Part shown: in pieces, positions 5,083-36,830 of the stretch | Layout: each line of letters begins with the position of its first letter | How positions within the stretch are numbered: the stretch's first letter is position 1 | Assembly: GCA_021851345.1 (NCBI GenBank) | Contig: JAJZEQ010000219.1 | Location: forward strand, 1-40,037 | Reading direction: 5' to 3' | Origin: Pseudomonadota bacterium | GTDB lineage: Bacteria; Pseudomonadota; Gammaproteobacteria; Burkholderiales; Gallionellaceae | DNA length: 40,037 nucleotides | Notes under the pieces: model-generated | Databases searched by the model: none | Seen by the model: only the letters and a program-made list of their open reading frames with translations | What the model was told of the DNA's origin: nothing | Position numbers and translations under genes: made by a program

Positions 5083-5294
5083 TCTTGCTCCATTATTTTG
5101 CCAGCCCGGGGAACTGCCACCCCGCCGATTTATTGAGGTTTTCATATTTGATGACAGTGACACATCTTTCTGAATGCAGTAAGGGGGAATTAAAAAACTG
5201 GCACGTCATTCCCGCGAATTCGGGAAATCCGGAGTGTCCCGTCTTTGCAACAAGGCTTCAGCTGCGAGCAATGGCACAAACACCTGTCATTGCG

Positions 5295-5461
5295 ATAACC
5301 AGCGACTTGCCGGCTTGCTGGCTTATAACCAACCACTTGGCAACCGTTTTGTGGTTGCTTAGTGGGATGGCTAGTTGTTTCACCAGTCGATTGGCTATAA
5401 CCAACCACTTGGCAACCGTCTTCTGGTTGCTTAGTGGGATGGCTAGTCGTTCCACCAGTAG
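5295..5461. repeat. Palindromic repeat array: one truncated unit plus two ~72-bp tandem units with a strong hairpin
   Basis: Units ATAACCAACCACTTGGCAACCG(TTTTGT/TCTTCT)GGTTGCTTAGTGGGATGGCTAGT(T/C)GTT(T/C)CACCAGT start at 5325 and 5397; hairpin CCACTTGGCAACC...GGTTGCTTAGTGG. Confidence 0.85.
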
Positions 5462-5499
5462 TTTCATCAGAAGGCGTAGCCGGCGCGGCAATCCAGAAC

Positions 5500-5630
5500 G
5501 CCCCGTCATTGCGAGGAGGCAAAGCCGACGTGGCAATCCAGATGGTTTAAAAAAGGCATCTTGGTCTTGCTGGATTGCTTCACTTCGTTCGCAATGACGG
5601 CACTTTGAGCCCCCGCACTTCGTTCGCAAT
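5500..5630. repeat. Interspersed inverted repeat of the type GTCATTGCGAGG..GCAATCCAG / CTGGATTGCTTCAC..GCAATGACGG
   Basis: Near-identical blocks also at about 35000..35200 and 36525..36665. Confidence 0.8.
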
Positions 5631-6057
5631 GACGGCAAGGGTGTCGTGAATTATGGAAGTATCAATAATGTGCGGAAACGCACAGATGCAAACGACAGGC
5701 TCCCATAAAGTTAAAGTAATTACATGCGGTGCTTTGGTGAATCAATGGCAACGTCTCGTTTCTTGTTTTGCAGACGTTGTTTTCGATCAGCACAATGAGA
5801 CAAGCAAACCTCAATAACTGCACGTTAAAAAGGTACTACTCATGCGGCATGATGGAGCTCAGGCAGAGAAGTTTTTGCGAATTCCGCATTATTAACTGCG
5901 CGGATGCGGGTAAATATTGCAGGCACCCGAGTATCAAATATACCGAAACAATAAATCCGGTATTAATTGAAATGAGTGAGCAAGAGCAGGCTATGGATTC
6001 GGCAGCAATAATGTAGCTGCCTGGCACTTCACATAAACTAAACCGTTAAGGCGCACC

Positions 6058-6363
6058 ATGGATCAAGCTGAACTTATTGAAAAAATTGCAAAGGAGTTGA
6101 GCATATCCAACGCTCAATCGCAGCGCTTGCTGAAGGCAACACTGCGGGAGATTCGTGACCTGCTCCGGGTCGGGCACGCGGTAACCATCCCGCACCTGGG
6201 CACCTTCGACACGGCGACGTACGAGGAGCACCGCGGTTATCGGCCAGTCACTCATGACTTTGCGATTTTCCCAAAACGGCGCGTGCCGGTGTTTCGCACA
6301 GGCACATTGCTGCGTGAAGAAGTTTACGATATCGAATCAAACGTAGCAGGTGCGCCGACATGA
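6058..6363 (+). CDS. HU/IHF family DNA-binding protein
   Basis: MDQAELIEKIAKELSISNAQSQRLLKATLREIRDLLRVGHAVTIPHLGTFDTATYEEHRGYRPVTHDFAIFPKRRVPVFRTGTLLREEV has HU/IHF fold spacing and the 'hLGTF' turn. Confidence 0.85.
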   Translation: MDQAELIEKIAKELSISNAQSQRLLKATLREIRDLLRVGHAVTIPHLGTFDTATYEEHRGYRPVTHDFAIFPKRRVPVFRTGTLLREEVYDIESNVAGAPT

Positions 6364-7241
6364 GCGACGACAACAAGATAGCGCTTCACACCTTTGCGGA
6401 GCTGGTGGCCAGGCGAGCCAAGGTCAGCAGTGTCGAAACAGACACCTTTATCCACAAATTCGCGAAAAGCATAAGTGAAGAATTGGAGAAGGGCGGCGAC
6501 ATTCATCTGTATCACTTTGGCCGTTTCCATACGACCCATGTCAATCAACAGGCGGGGCACAATCCCAACTCCGGCGCACCTTTAACAATTCCCGAGCACT
6601 CGCGTGTCCACTTTCATCCCTACGGCGCATTGCGCTTGGCTGTCAACGCTCCTTTCAGTCAGCTGCGAATCAGGGAACTCACTCCGGACAAAACAGAATG
6701 GCGTACCAGATCCGGCTTCTGGATCTTGCTGGCGCTGCTTGTATTGCTGCTGATCGTGCTTGGCATCAGGGCCATGCGTGGAATATCCACTCAGGATTCG
6801 TCCGAAGTATCGCGCGAGATGTCATCGGATAAAGCCGTAGTAGTGCACACCGACCAAACTCCCGATACCGGCACGCCCGCCCCGGTTGCTCCCGTAGAGG
6901 CGAAAGCCACCTTAACGGCAATCGCTGCGGCGACAGGGGTTGTCGTGTCACCCGGTGATACCTTGTGGGCGATTGCCGCGAGCAGATTGGGCGATCCCTA
7001 TTGGTGGCCAGTTATCTATGCGGAAAACAGACCAGAGTTGTCCCACCGAAACCCGGATCTGATTGATAGCGGGATCACACTGCGGATACCTGCTCTGGCT
7101 GGTAGCGTGAACAGTCCCAATGTCGCGGACCTTCGTCTGAAAACGAACGCTTACCAGATGGTGGCCGACGATTACCGGAAAATCGGCAATCCTCGAGCCG
7201 CAGCGTATGAGAAGGAAGCAGCCCGCTTGCCTAAAGAATAA
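6360..7241 (+). CDS. HU/IHF-like domain + single transmembrane helix + LysM domain fusion protein
   Basis: N-term LHTFAELVARRAKVSSVETDTFIHKFAKSISEELEKGGDIHLYHFGRFHTTHVNQQAGHNPNSGAPLTIPEHSRVHFHPYGALRLAVN (HU-like); TM FWILLALLVLLLIVLGIRAM; C-term VVSPGDTLWAIAASRLGDPYWWPVIYAENRPELSHRNPDLIDSGITLRIP (LysM). ATGA overlap with the upstream HU gene. Confidence 0.88.
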   Translation: MSDDNKIALHTFAELVARRAKVSSVETDTFIHKFAKSISEELEKGGDIHLYHFGRFHTTHVNQQAGHNPNSGAPLTIPEHSRVHFHPYGALRLAVNAPFSQLRIRELTPDKTEWRTRSGFWILLALLVLLLIVLGIRAMRGISTQDSSEVSREMSSDKAVVVHTDQTPDTGTPAPVAPVEAKATLTAIAAATGVVVSPGDTLWAIAASRLGDPYWWPVIYAENRPELSHRNPDLIDSGITLRIPALAGSVNSPNVADLRLKTNAYQMVADDYRKIGNPRAAAYEKEAARLPKE

Positions 7242-7402: not shown

Positions 7403-9499
7403 TTAAGAAGGCTGACCTTGGCTGCGCATCTTCTGTTGATGAAAGTGCTCCAGTAGCACATTTAAGGTCGAAAACGTCACGGGAGCGGATAGCCTCGTCC
7501 TCACCTCGCTAAGCGATTGCACGCTTTCCAATAGGACGTCGAGCTGGGCCACGCTCGCGGAAGCGGCATTGAGCGGATGGGCGTTGATGTCTTGCCCTGC
7601 CGCCTCAAGCAGGCGTGTCTCTTCCCGAAACAAGCGCAGATTCGTGTTGAAGTCCTCGACTTGCCTTTTTTTCGTATAGCCGGGATCGCATGTGAATTCG
7701 ACCGACAGCAACGCATTATAGATGTTCCGAAGCATCCATCGATCCTGAAGCGAGCCGTGGTCCAACAGGGTTACGGTGAGGCGCGTGATGCGCCGGTTTC
7801 GAAGCTCAAGCCTTGTTTCATCACGGAAATGTATCGAGCCCGCACTTCGCAAAATACGCTCATGCCTGAGAGCCTGAGCTTGAGACGCAAACAAACCACC
7901 CGCAAAATCAAGTAGCGCATCGCCCTGCATGCCGGTCATGGCGCCCCTGGTCAGCGCCTTCGCTTTGCACTCGACAAGGATGATATTTTCCTCATCCTCG
8001 AAAACGAGATCGCACTCGCCGGCACCTTGTTCACCTAGATCATAGATCGCGTTCTCGAAGCTCGGTTGAAAGCCGTGCTTGGCGAATAGGTATTTCGTCA
8101 GCCGCTCTGCCGCATCGCCTCTCAGACTGGCGATTTCCTGATCGGTCTTGTTGGTTCTCCAGGCTGCGAATGTGGCTTCGAACAGGGCTGGGCCCAGTAC
8201 CGAGGCCGCCGGCAGAACGACGCTGTTTCCCTTGAGCAGAATGAGCGGCTTGAAGATTACGTCAGGACCCGCGGCCCCGAAGGGAGAGCGATAGTTTTTG
8301 TTGGCCTCTCCCTCTCTATGCGCAAAGAACGGCAACATGGATTTAAAGACCCCCGGGTCGAAGCCGGTTTCAACCAACTTGGGGATCGGTACGACCTGAG
8401 TGCCCGGCCTGGCATGAGCTTTAAGAACCTGGGCCAGCTGCACCGCATCCGCAACGTTCCAGCCGAGCCGCTGCTCCATGTCGGCATCGAAGCTTTCGCC
8501 GAAAAAAACGGTGAGAAACTGCGGCGTGAAGCTGAGATGCCACTGACGAAGAGAGAAGCAGTGGTCGTAGTGAGCGACCTCTCGCAGTCCATCCTCCAAG
8601 GCTTGTGCATTCAATCCTAGAAAAGCAAATTGTGAGTAGGGTTCGAGATCGAGCATCGCCACGAGATCGCGCGCTAGGCAGACGGCCTTGTCCCAGAAGG
8701 ACTTGGCATTGCGTTCGTTGGATACTAGGGCCGGCAGCTTGACGGCAATGTTATAGAGCAGCCCGATCGGCAACCCCGGGGGCCGATCACCAAGGCCGCC
8801 GGCATATTTCCTGCCGAATAGAATTTGCTCGTAGGCGTAGTCTTGGGTCTCAAGGGCCGCCCGCATGATATTCGAGAGCGCATTGAGACAGCCTAGGCGA
8901 TGGAGGCATTTCCAAATTTTGCCGACGATATTCTCGATACCCTCAGGCCTGATCTGGTATCGGCCTGAGCGGATCGAAAAGGCGTAGCCGAACCGTTTGA
9001 TCCGAGTCGCTGCGTCCGCAACCGCTTTCGTGCGAGCGTTCGAGAATGGAAATCGCTTGAGGACTGTGAAGGCGCGGCCTATAAGCATGGCTTCCAGCCA
9101 AGCCGACTCATGGTCGAGTGCTCTCACGAAGGCAGTGACTTGCGGAGAAGGAGATGCGCCTGGTTGAACGGGCCCGGACGGAATCCTCTTTCCGTCGGGC
9201 TTGACGATTCCGGGCAGGCAAGCCGCAATGTTGTTGAGCGCCTCGGCGATCGGCTCGCTCACCCTATCCAGCACATTAGCCAAAAAGAAATGATTGGCTA
9301 GAGAGCGCACGGTGCCAACCGTTTGGCCAGTATTCTCCAAGACGATCAATAAATCGAAGAGGCGATCCGATGCGTGTTGAAGGCTCTGATAGGCTTCCAA
9401 GGCCTCATTCGCGGCGGCTTCATCTGCCATCGGCACGGCTGTGGCGGAATCCAGAAAAATCGCTCTTAGTTTTTGCGCCTGATCGTCCAGGTCCTGCAT
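7403..9499 (-). CDS. Large uncharacterised protein with a C-terminal PD-(D/E)XK (restriction-endonuclease-like) nuclease motif
   Basis: Single 698-aa ORF; RGDAAERLTKYLFAKHGF...GAGECDLVFEDEENIILVECKAKALTRG fits E...D...ExK of the PD-(D/E)XK superfamily (motif about 7955..8125). Confidence 0.75.
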   Translation of the reverse strand: MQDLDDQAQKLRAIFLDSATAVPMADEAAANEALEAYQSLQHASDRLFDLLIVLENTGQTVGTVRSLANHFFLANVLDRVSEPIAEALNNIAACLPGIVKPDGKRIPSGPVQPGASPSPQVTAFVRALDHESAWLEAMLIGRAFTVLKRFPFSNARTKAVADAATRIKRFGYAFSIRSGRYQIRPEGIENIVGKIWKCLHRLGCLNALSNIMRAALETQDYAYEQILFGRKYAGGLGDRPPGLPIGLLYNIAVKLPALVSNERNAKSFWDKAVCLARDLVAMLDLEPYSQFAFLGLNAQALEDGLREVAHYDHCFSLRQWHLSFTPQFLTVFFGESFDADMEQRLGWNVADAVQLAQVLKAHARPGTQVVPIPKLVETGFDPGVFKSMLPFFAHREGEANKNYRSPFGAAGPDVIFKPLILLKGNSVVLPAASVLGPALFEATFAAWRTNKTDQEIASLRGDAAERLTKYLFAKHGFQPSFENAIYDLGEQGAGECDLVFEDEENIILVECKAKALTRGAMTGMQGDALLDFAGGLFASQAQALRHERILRSAGSIHFRDETRLELRNRRITRLTVTLLDHGSLQDRWMLRNIYNALLSVEFTCDPGYTKKRQVEDFNTNLRLFREETRLLEAAGQDINAHPLNAASASVAQLDVLLESVQSLSEVRTRLSAPVTFSTLNVLLEHFHQQKMRSQGQPS

Positions 9500-34859: not shown

Positions 34860-35223
34860 TATTGAGGTTTCCATATTCGATGACAGTGACGCATCTTTCG
34901 GAATGCGGTAAGGAGAAATTAAAAAACCGGCACGTCATTCCCGTCCTTCGATGGACTCAGGATAAACTGTCCTTCGGATACGCAGGAATCCAGAACCCGT
35001 CGTCATTGCGAGTCGGCAAAGCCGACGCGGCAATCCAGATGGTTTAACCGAAATGCATCTTGGTTTTGCTGGATTGCTTCACGTCGTTCGCAATGACGGC
35101 ATTTTGGATTCCCGTCATTGCGAGGAACGTAGCGACGCGGCAATCCAGGGCAGCAAACCGCTGGATTGCTTCACTTCATTCGCAATGACGGCAACGGTGT
35201 CATGAATTATGGAAGTATCAATA
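34860..35223 (+). mobile_element. MITE-like element, copy 2
   Basis: Left end TATTGAGGTTTCCATATTCGATGACAGTGACGCATCTTTCGGAATGCGGTAAGGAGAAATTAAAAAAC and right end GTGTCATGAATTATGGAAGTATCAATA match copy 1. Confidence 0.65.
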
Positions 35224-35225
35224 AG

Positions 35226-36487: not shown

Positions 36488-36751
36488 TATTGATACTTCC
36501 ATAATTCACGACACCCTTGCCGTCATTGCGAACGAAGTGAAGCAATCCAGCAAGACCAAGATACATTTTTTAAGCCATCTGGATTGCCGCGTCGGCTTCG
36601 CCTCTGCCGCGCTTCGCTCGCAGCTAAAGCCTTGTTGCAATGACGAGGCATTCTGGATTCCCGCTTTCGCGGGAATGACGTTCCCGTTTTTTATTTTTCC
36701 GGCCCGGTTCCGAATGATGCTGCGCTGTCATCAATTATGGAAAATTCAATA
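36488..36751 (-). mobile_element. MITE-like element, copy 3 (inverted relative to copies 1 and 2)
   Basis: Starts TATTGATACTTCCATAATTCACGACACCCTTGCCGTCATTGCG and ends GCTGTCATCAATTATGGAAAATTCAATA, i.e. the reverse complement of the copy 1/2 layout. Confidence 0.65.
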
Positions 36752-36830
36752 ATTATCCGTGCCGGGTATTTGGGGACTGCAATGACTGTGTGCTGCAGCA
36801 GACATTTGGAATTGCCCATTATTCAGCAGT

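Follow-up and report, generated by a model that had tools for sequence, protein, structure and literature searches.

How the envelope and the nucleoid of bacteria are physically coupled has yet to be explained. The closest functional counterparts of the protein described here are HubP and FimV. These polar landmark proteins, like TspA, combine a periplasmic LysM domain, one transmembrane (TM) helix and a cytoplasmic part. The periplasmic LysM domain of V. cholerae HubP is necessary and sufficient for polar targeting, and this LysM-TM protein holds the chromosome 1 origin at the pole via ParA1 (PMC8789113). P. putida FimV requires its LysM domain for sacculus binding but has no effect on chromosome segregation (PMC12918733), a warning not to take every LysM-TM protein for a chromosome anchor. 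Unlike the fusion protein reported here, HubP and FimV have an amino-terminal LysM domain, cytoplasmic acidic repeats and TPR, and no HU domain, and their link to DNA is indirect. Ordinary HU/IHF proteins resemble our gene pair in predicted fold, in dimer-type sequence and in an arm with a proline at its tip, and both IHF and E. coli HU (alpha/beta) likewise have two different subunits on hand; they differ in lacking the membrane anchor and LysM of the fusion. Fusions of HU to SPOR and to other membrane or cell-wall modules have reportedly been proposed for Bacteroidetes. HU-SPOR joins HU to a peptidoglycan-binding domain in a proposed DNA-to-wall link, as the present fusion does, but it uses SPOR rather than LysM and belongs to another phylum. 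The literature searched yielded no description of an HU-LysM fusion or of an operon pairing HU with HU-TM-LysM.

The window, the 40,037-nucleotide stretch of Gallionellaceae DNA analyzed here, contains two overlapping genes with the following features.

6058–6363, + strand: companion gene for a soluble HU/IHF-family protein of 101 aa (PF00216, 59.5 bits against a cut-off of 22.4; Foldseek match to E. coli HU at probability 1.00, E above 0.001)
6360–6363, + strand: ATGA start/stop overlap (4 bp) of the companion and fusion genes, read from the sequence and kept in relatives
6360–7241, + strand: HU-TM-LysM fusion gene, 293 aa, ATG start (ORF call and orthologue alignments)
6393–6647, + strand: HU/IHF domain, residues 12–96, with a His-rich, Arg/Lys-poor DNA-facing arm (Pfam profile, composition)
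6711–6770, + strand: single TM helix, residues ~118–137 (hydropathy; K/R count on either side)
6771–6935, + strand: variable Pro/Ala-rich linker, predicted to be periplasmic, residues 138–192 (alignment, selection)
6936–7097, + strand: LysM domain of the Kbp/TsaP/phage-baseplate subtype, residues 193–246 (Pfam, AlphaFold, Foldseek, family profile)
7098–7238, + strand: conserved two-helix carboxy-terminal extension, residues 247–293 (alignment, AlphaFold, dN/dS)

An earlier note on this DNA read 6360–7241 as an HU/IHF domain joined through one TM helix to a LysM domain, and this architecture is borne out. Residues 12–96 match PF00216 with 61 bits (E = 1.4e-16, cut-off 22.4), and a single hydrophobic segment spans residues ~118–137. 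The full-domain profile matches place both the fusion and the companion in the PF00216 family. The LysM region of the window protein scores 18.1 bits as a single sequence, below the Pfam cut-off of 20.9. Searched against the PDB, the family profile of the protein detects Kbp (7pvc), TsaP (3jc8) and the phage LysM protein 9g8s with E values of ~1e-8, and AlphaFold models residues 191–290 (LysM and the carboxy-terminal part) with pLDDT 77–96, and LysM itself with 80–96. The profile and the model together identify a LysM domain in both fold and sequence (PF01476). AF2 monomers of the fusion and the companion have a mean pLDDT of 58–61 and HU secondary structure. The HU half of the fusion has pLDDT ~40–60 in the monomer model, yet its helix-helix-strand-arm-strand-helix order is that of HU; Foldseek matches it to HU at probability 0.93, all matches having E above 0.001. 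The low pLDDT is attributed to the modeling of an obligate, intertwined dimer as a single chain.

Kbp (YgaU) and TsaP are among the closest solved LysM relatives of the fusion by profile. Neither contains HU: in Kbp, described as K+-binding, LysM stands beside BON, and TsaP is secreted and belongs to the type IV pilus. Because this LysM subtype is common to Kbp and phage baseplates, carbohydrate binding is not certain; peptidoglycan binding by the fusion is plausible by analogy. Pfam and NCBIfam scans of the fusion gave no FimV or TPR match and its domain order is reversed, which separates it from the HubP/FimV family.

Both ends of the fusion are under purifying selection. Among Gallionellaceae copies the median dN/dS is 0.22 for HU, 0.26 for LysM, 0.25 for the carboxy-terminal extension and 0.18 for the companion, and it rises to ~0.5 for the TM helix and linker. 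The ends are thus kept by selection and the middle behaves as a spacer. In 23 closer relatives, the 20 residues before the TM helix contain 5–7 K/R and those after it 0–3; the bias is less clear in the distant homologue L064 (3 before, 0 after). With the positive-inside rule, this hydropathy and charge composition leads us to infer an N-in topology, which puts HU on the cytoplasmic and LysM on the periplasmic side, a prediction that agrees with the orientation assumed in the earlier note.

The companion is a constant partner of the fusion. The ATGA overlap makes translational coupling likely, and a survey of 150 family genomes found the companion with the same overlap in 15/15 full-length relatives. 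Out-of-family relatives with a completely read upstream region likewise carry it with this overlap; in L062 the companion gene is cut by the contig start. The conserved gene pair suggested by the earlier note therefore exists, both within the family and across phyla. When flanking proteins were compared across 22 loci, none besides the pair proved common to more than three of them, and the few common neighbors join only small groups of loci. The pair alone is the recurring unit, at unrelated sites. The window and Ca. Gallionella acididurans (L040) share a transketolase-transaldolase-G6PD neighborhood. A 698-aa protein (window 7403–9499, − strand) lies between the pair and transketolase and is absent from that position in Ca. 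Gallionella acididurans; it has no Pfam match above cut-off and no PADLOC match.

The reading we favor, at somewhat less than even confidence, is that the pair is a horizontally spread envelope-stress module whose membrane HU-HU complex serves as a conditional nucleoid-to-envelope link. The soluble and membrane-anchored HU proteins would be made together and would most likely sit as a heterodimer against the inner membrane on its cytoplasmic side, and the TM helix and flexible linker would place LysM on the peptidoglycan. A CRP/FNR-type regulator would define the stress conditions under which the complex holds a DNA segment, or senses DNA, next to the wall. This reading is favored because both genes belong to the HU family, their pairing with the 4-bp overlap is constant, the charge bias is N-in, the LysM fold is modeled and the domains are under purifying selection. 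The arm-tip proline in both proteins, the KRR cluster of the companion, the domain order of the distant homologues L064 and L072 and the recurrence of the operator argue for it too, and sacculus binding by the periplasmic LysM domain of FimV and origin holding by HubP provide precedents. Against it, the fused HU domain is near-neutral to acidic and has lost most of its DNA-contacting basic residues, and therefore may not bind DNA. A direct nucleoid-to-wall link is plausibly the most natural function of the pair, although the tether is something we infer. As a self-contained two-gene unit that has already moved between phyla, the pair would allow a direct DNA-to-wall link to be tested by expressing it in a laboratory strain.

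The DNA-binding surface was compared over a 41-residue arm-and-saddle segment in a gapless alignment of 21 fusion sequences with 7 ordinary HU/IHF domains of the same genome. The fusion sequences average 4.1 K/R, 3.3 D/E and 5.0 His, against 9.7 K/R, 2.0 D/E and 0.6 His in the ordinary proteins, and the K/R ranges are 3–6 and 9–12, respectively. The net charge of the HU domain runs from −5 to +1 in the fusion and from +3 to +13 in the seven ordinary proteins. The companion is intermediate, with averages of 7.1 K/R and 4.4 D/E, and it keeps 6–9 K/R in this region, including the KRR cluster. In the fusion arm, GH(D/N)P mostly stands in place of GRNP, Thr takes the position of the lysine in IKI, and Gln or Glu occupies the positions ahead of the arm tip. 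The proline at the tip is kept in both proteins, and Arg55, Arg82, Arg92 and histidines 57, 60, 80 and 84 are conserved in the fusion. The arm motif that the earlier note matched to the HU pattern is only HU-like: most of the Arg/Lys positions with which HU contacts DNA carry His or neutral residues here, and the fusion lacks the basic arm and saddle with which HU/IHF proteins contact DNA. DNA binding must therefore not be assumed. The direct DNA-to-wall tether proposed in that note retains the support of the architecture and predicted topology, and its DNA-binding half is weakened by the near-neutral to acidic charge and the Arg/Lys-poor arm. The loss of these residues appears to be new here. 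Together with the gain of conserved histidines, the loss of HU contacts gives a way to probe the limits within which the HU fold can take on new roles.

A fusion-companion heterodimer could nonetheless hold DNA, with a grip that perhaps depends on pH or metal. Alternatively, the HU fold of the fusion may serve only for dimerization, with a complex that does not bind DNA and only scaffolds the envelope through LysM. The charge and K/R ranges of the fusion and the disappearance of arm arginines from both subunits fit this alternative, which we nonetheless consider rather unlikely, since the tip proline, the three invariant arginines and the companion KRR cluster remain and the distant homologue L064 has a canonical DNA-binding arm. 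In the most specific form of the favored conditional link, an HU-HU complex that is induced by stress and exchanged laterally connects the nucleoid directly through the inner membrane to peptidoglycan, with the His-rich surface making its grip on DNA conditional on pH or metal. Such a complex would join DNA, membrane and wall directly by means of a histone-like protein, in bacteria that cycle iron and sulphur; in this full detail the reading is doubtful.

The DNA upstream of the pair contains two further features.

5669–5684, no strand: palindrome TGTGCGGAAACGCACA (TGTG-N8-CACA), a putative operator (one exact match in the window; conserved upstream in relatives)
5795–6016, + strand: possible small ORF of 73 aa in the leader, Cys-containing, with no Pfam match

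The palindrome is a perfect TGTGCG-N4-CGCACA located 389 bp upstream of the companion start, with a possible −10 element (TAAAGT) a little downstream. Its TGTG-N8-CACA spacing is that of CRP/FNR sites. It occurs upstream of most Gallionellaceae copies of the pair, at varying distance and with small changes. Sites were counted by pattern searches with the reversed pattern as the control. The window's own genome has six exact sites against none for the control, the counts in four relatives that carry the pair intact are 10, 7, 3 and 3 (controls 0, 1, 2 and 0), a relative with a broken fusion has one, and the same search found none in three relatives without the pair. The sites examined are window 5669–5684 and those in L078–L082 and L084–L096. 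Assigned by proximity, the genes at the other sites encode BON, CsbD-like, DUF4398, DUF4398-OmpA, DUF5670, ice-binding-like, holin/DUF883, cold-shock (CSD) and AI-2E-type proteins. These palindromes look like the marks of a putative CRP/FNR-like envelope or general-stress regulon in Gallionellaceae, and the presence of this candidate operator before the pair and before envelope/stress genes appears to be new here. In L041, L042 and L044 a Cys-rich small ORF (~72 aa, FCEFCINCADAGKYCGH) is intact, situated after the palindrome and ahead of the pair; elsewhere it is altered or lost. Dispersed repeats of ~50–140 bp (78–100% identical) at window 5130–5668, 34860–35224 and 36488–36752 abut the leader of the pair.

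The putative regulon also bears on a second alternative, a transmembrane regulator of the ToxR/CadC type with HU as the reader. The LysM/carboxy-terminal part would sense peptidoglycan or the envelope, and the HU-HU complex would alter local DNA architecture and transcription. The membrane anchor with a small soluble partner, the unusual His-rich DNA-facing surface that could respond to pH or metal, and membership in a putative envelope-stress regulon are consistent with such a sensor. HU proteins, however, are usually sequence-neutral and no conserved target gene is adjacent to the pair, and we regard a sensor as unlikely.

The pair is rare and the evidence supports horizontal spread. Full-length orthologues of the fusion occur in 15/150 Gallionellaceae genomes (~10%), and the fusion is found in 22 loci, one of them truncated, among named genomes of several phyla. 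The named matches are Gallionella, Sideroxydans and Sideroxyarcus within the family, and one Zetaproteobacterium, two 'Helicobacteraceae' (Campylobacterota) and one Desulfobacterales genome outside it. One further bacterium with the pair groups with one of the 'Helicobacteraceae', and two marine-biofilm MAGs titled Proteobacteria that carry the fusion are placed in the class of the Desulfobacterales genome. The fusion is present in only one other of 369 genomes in the class of the window organism, 1/78 in the class of the Zetaproteobacterium, 3/193 in the class of the Desulfobacterales genome and 2/150 in the order of L056, the distant L064 included. Cross-phylum identity to the window protein is 55–69%. 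In the low-GC hosts L055 and L056 the pair has 47–48% GC and its flanks on the same contig 33–36%, a mismatch that supports horizontal gain rather than a binning error.

This patchy cross-phylum distribution is also what a wall-linked HU complex that captures incoming DNA at the membrane, directed against mobile elements or DNA entry, might produce. Such a role is very improbable: there is no PADLOC match, the loci have no defense-type neighbors in common, the fusion is absent from viral and phage relatives and the regulon resembles envelope stress. An artefact in which annotation or assembly joined two unrelated genes has nothing but the weak single-sequence LysM score in its favor and is practically out of the question, because the same fusion occurs in more than 20 independent assemblies and both domains are under selection (dN/dS ~0.2–0.26).

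Other origins were considered and rejected. Identification as an anti-phage defense protein failed for want of a PADLOC model match. A mobile element or integron cassette was rejected because no common recombinase and no terminal inverted repeats surround the unit, and a phage or plasmid origin because viral contigs, phages and plasmids give only HU-domain matches and no fusion.

HU-TM-linker-LysM is also the order in L064 and L072, two more distant proteins of Campylobacterota, so this architecture is broader than the present clade; L064 carries a canonical GRNPQTG arm. In Sideroxydans sp. STB_48 (L024/L060) the fusion gene is broken after residue 75, directly next to a reverse-strand frame resembling an IS200-type transposase. 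The window's own genome (G000), a draft of 2.7 Mb, has a large HU complement, with 14 matches to the HU/IHF family. In another proteobacterium, L067:1030–1743 encodes an HU domain with a canonical arm; it was rejected as a LysM fusion since its carboxy-terminal region differs and resembles PilZ by eye.
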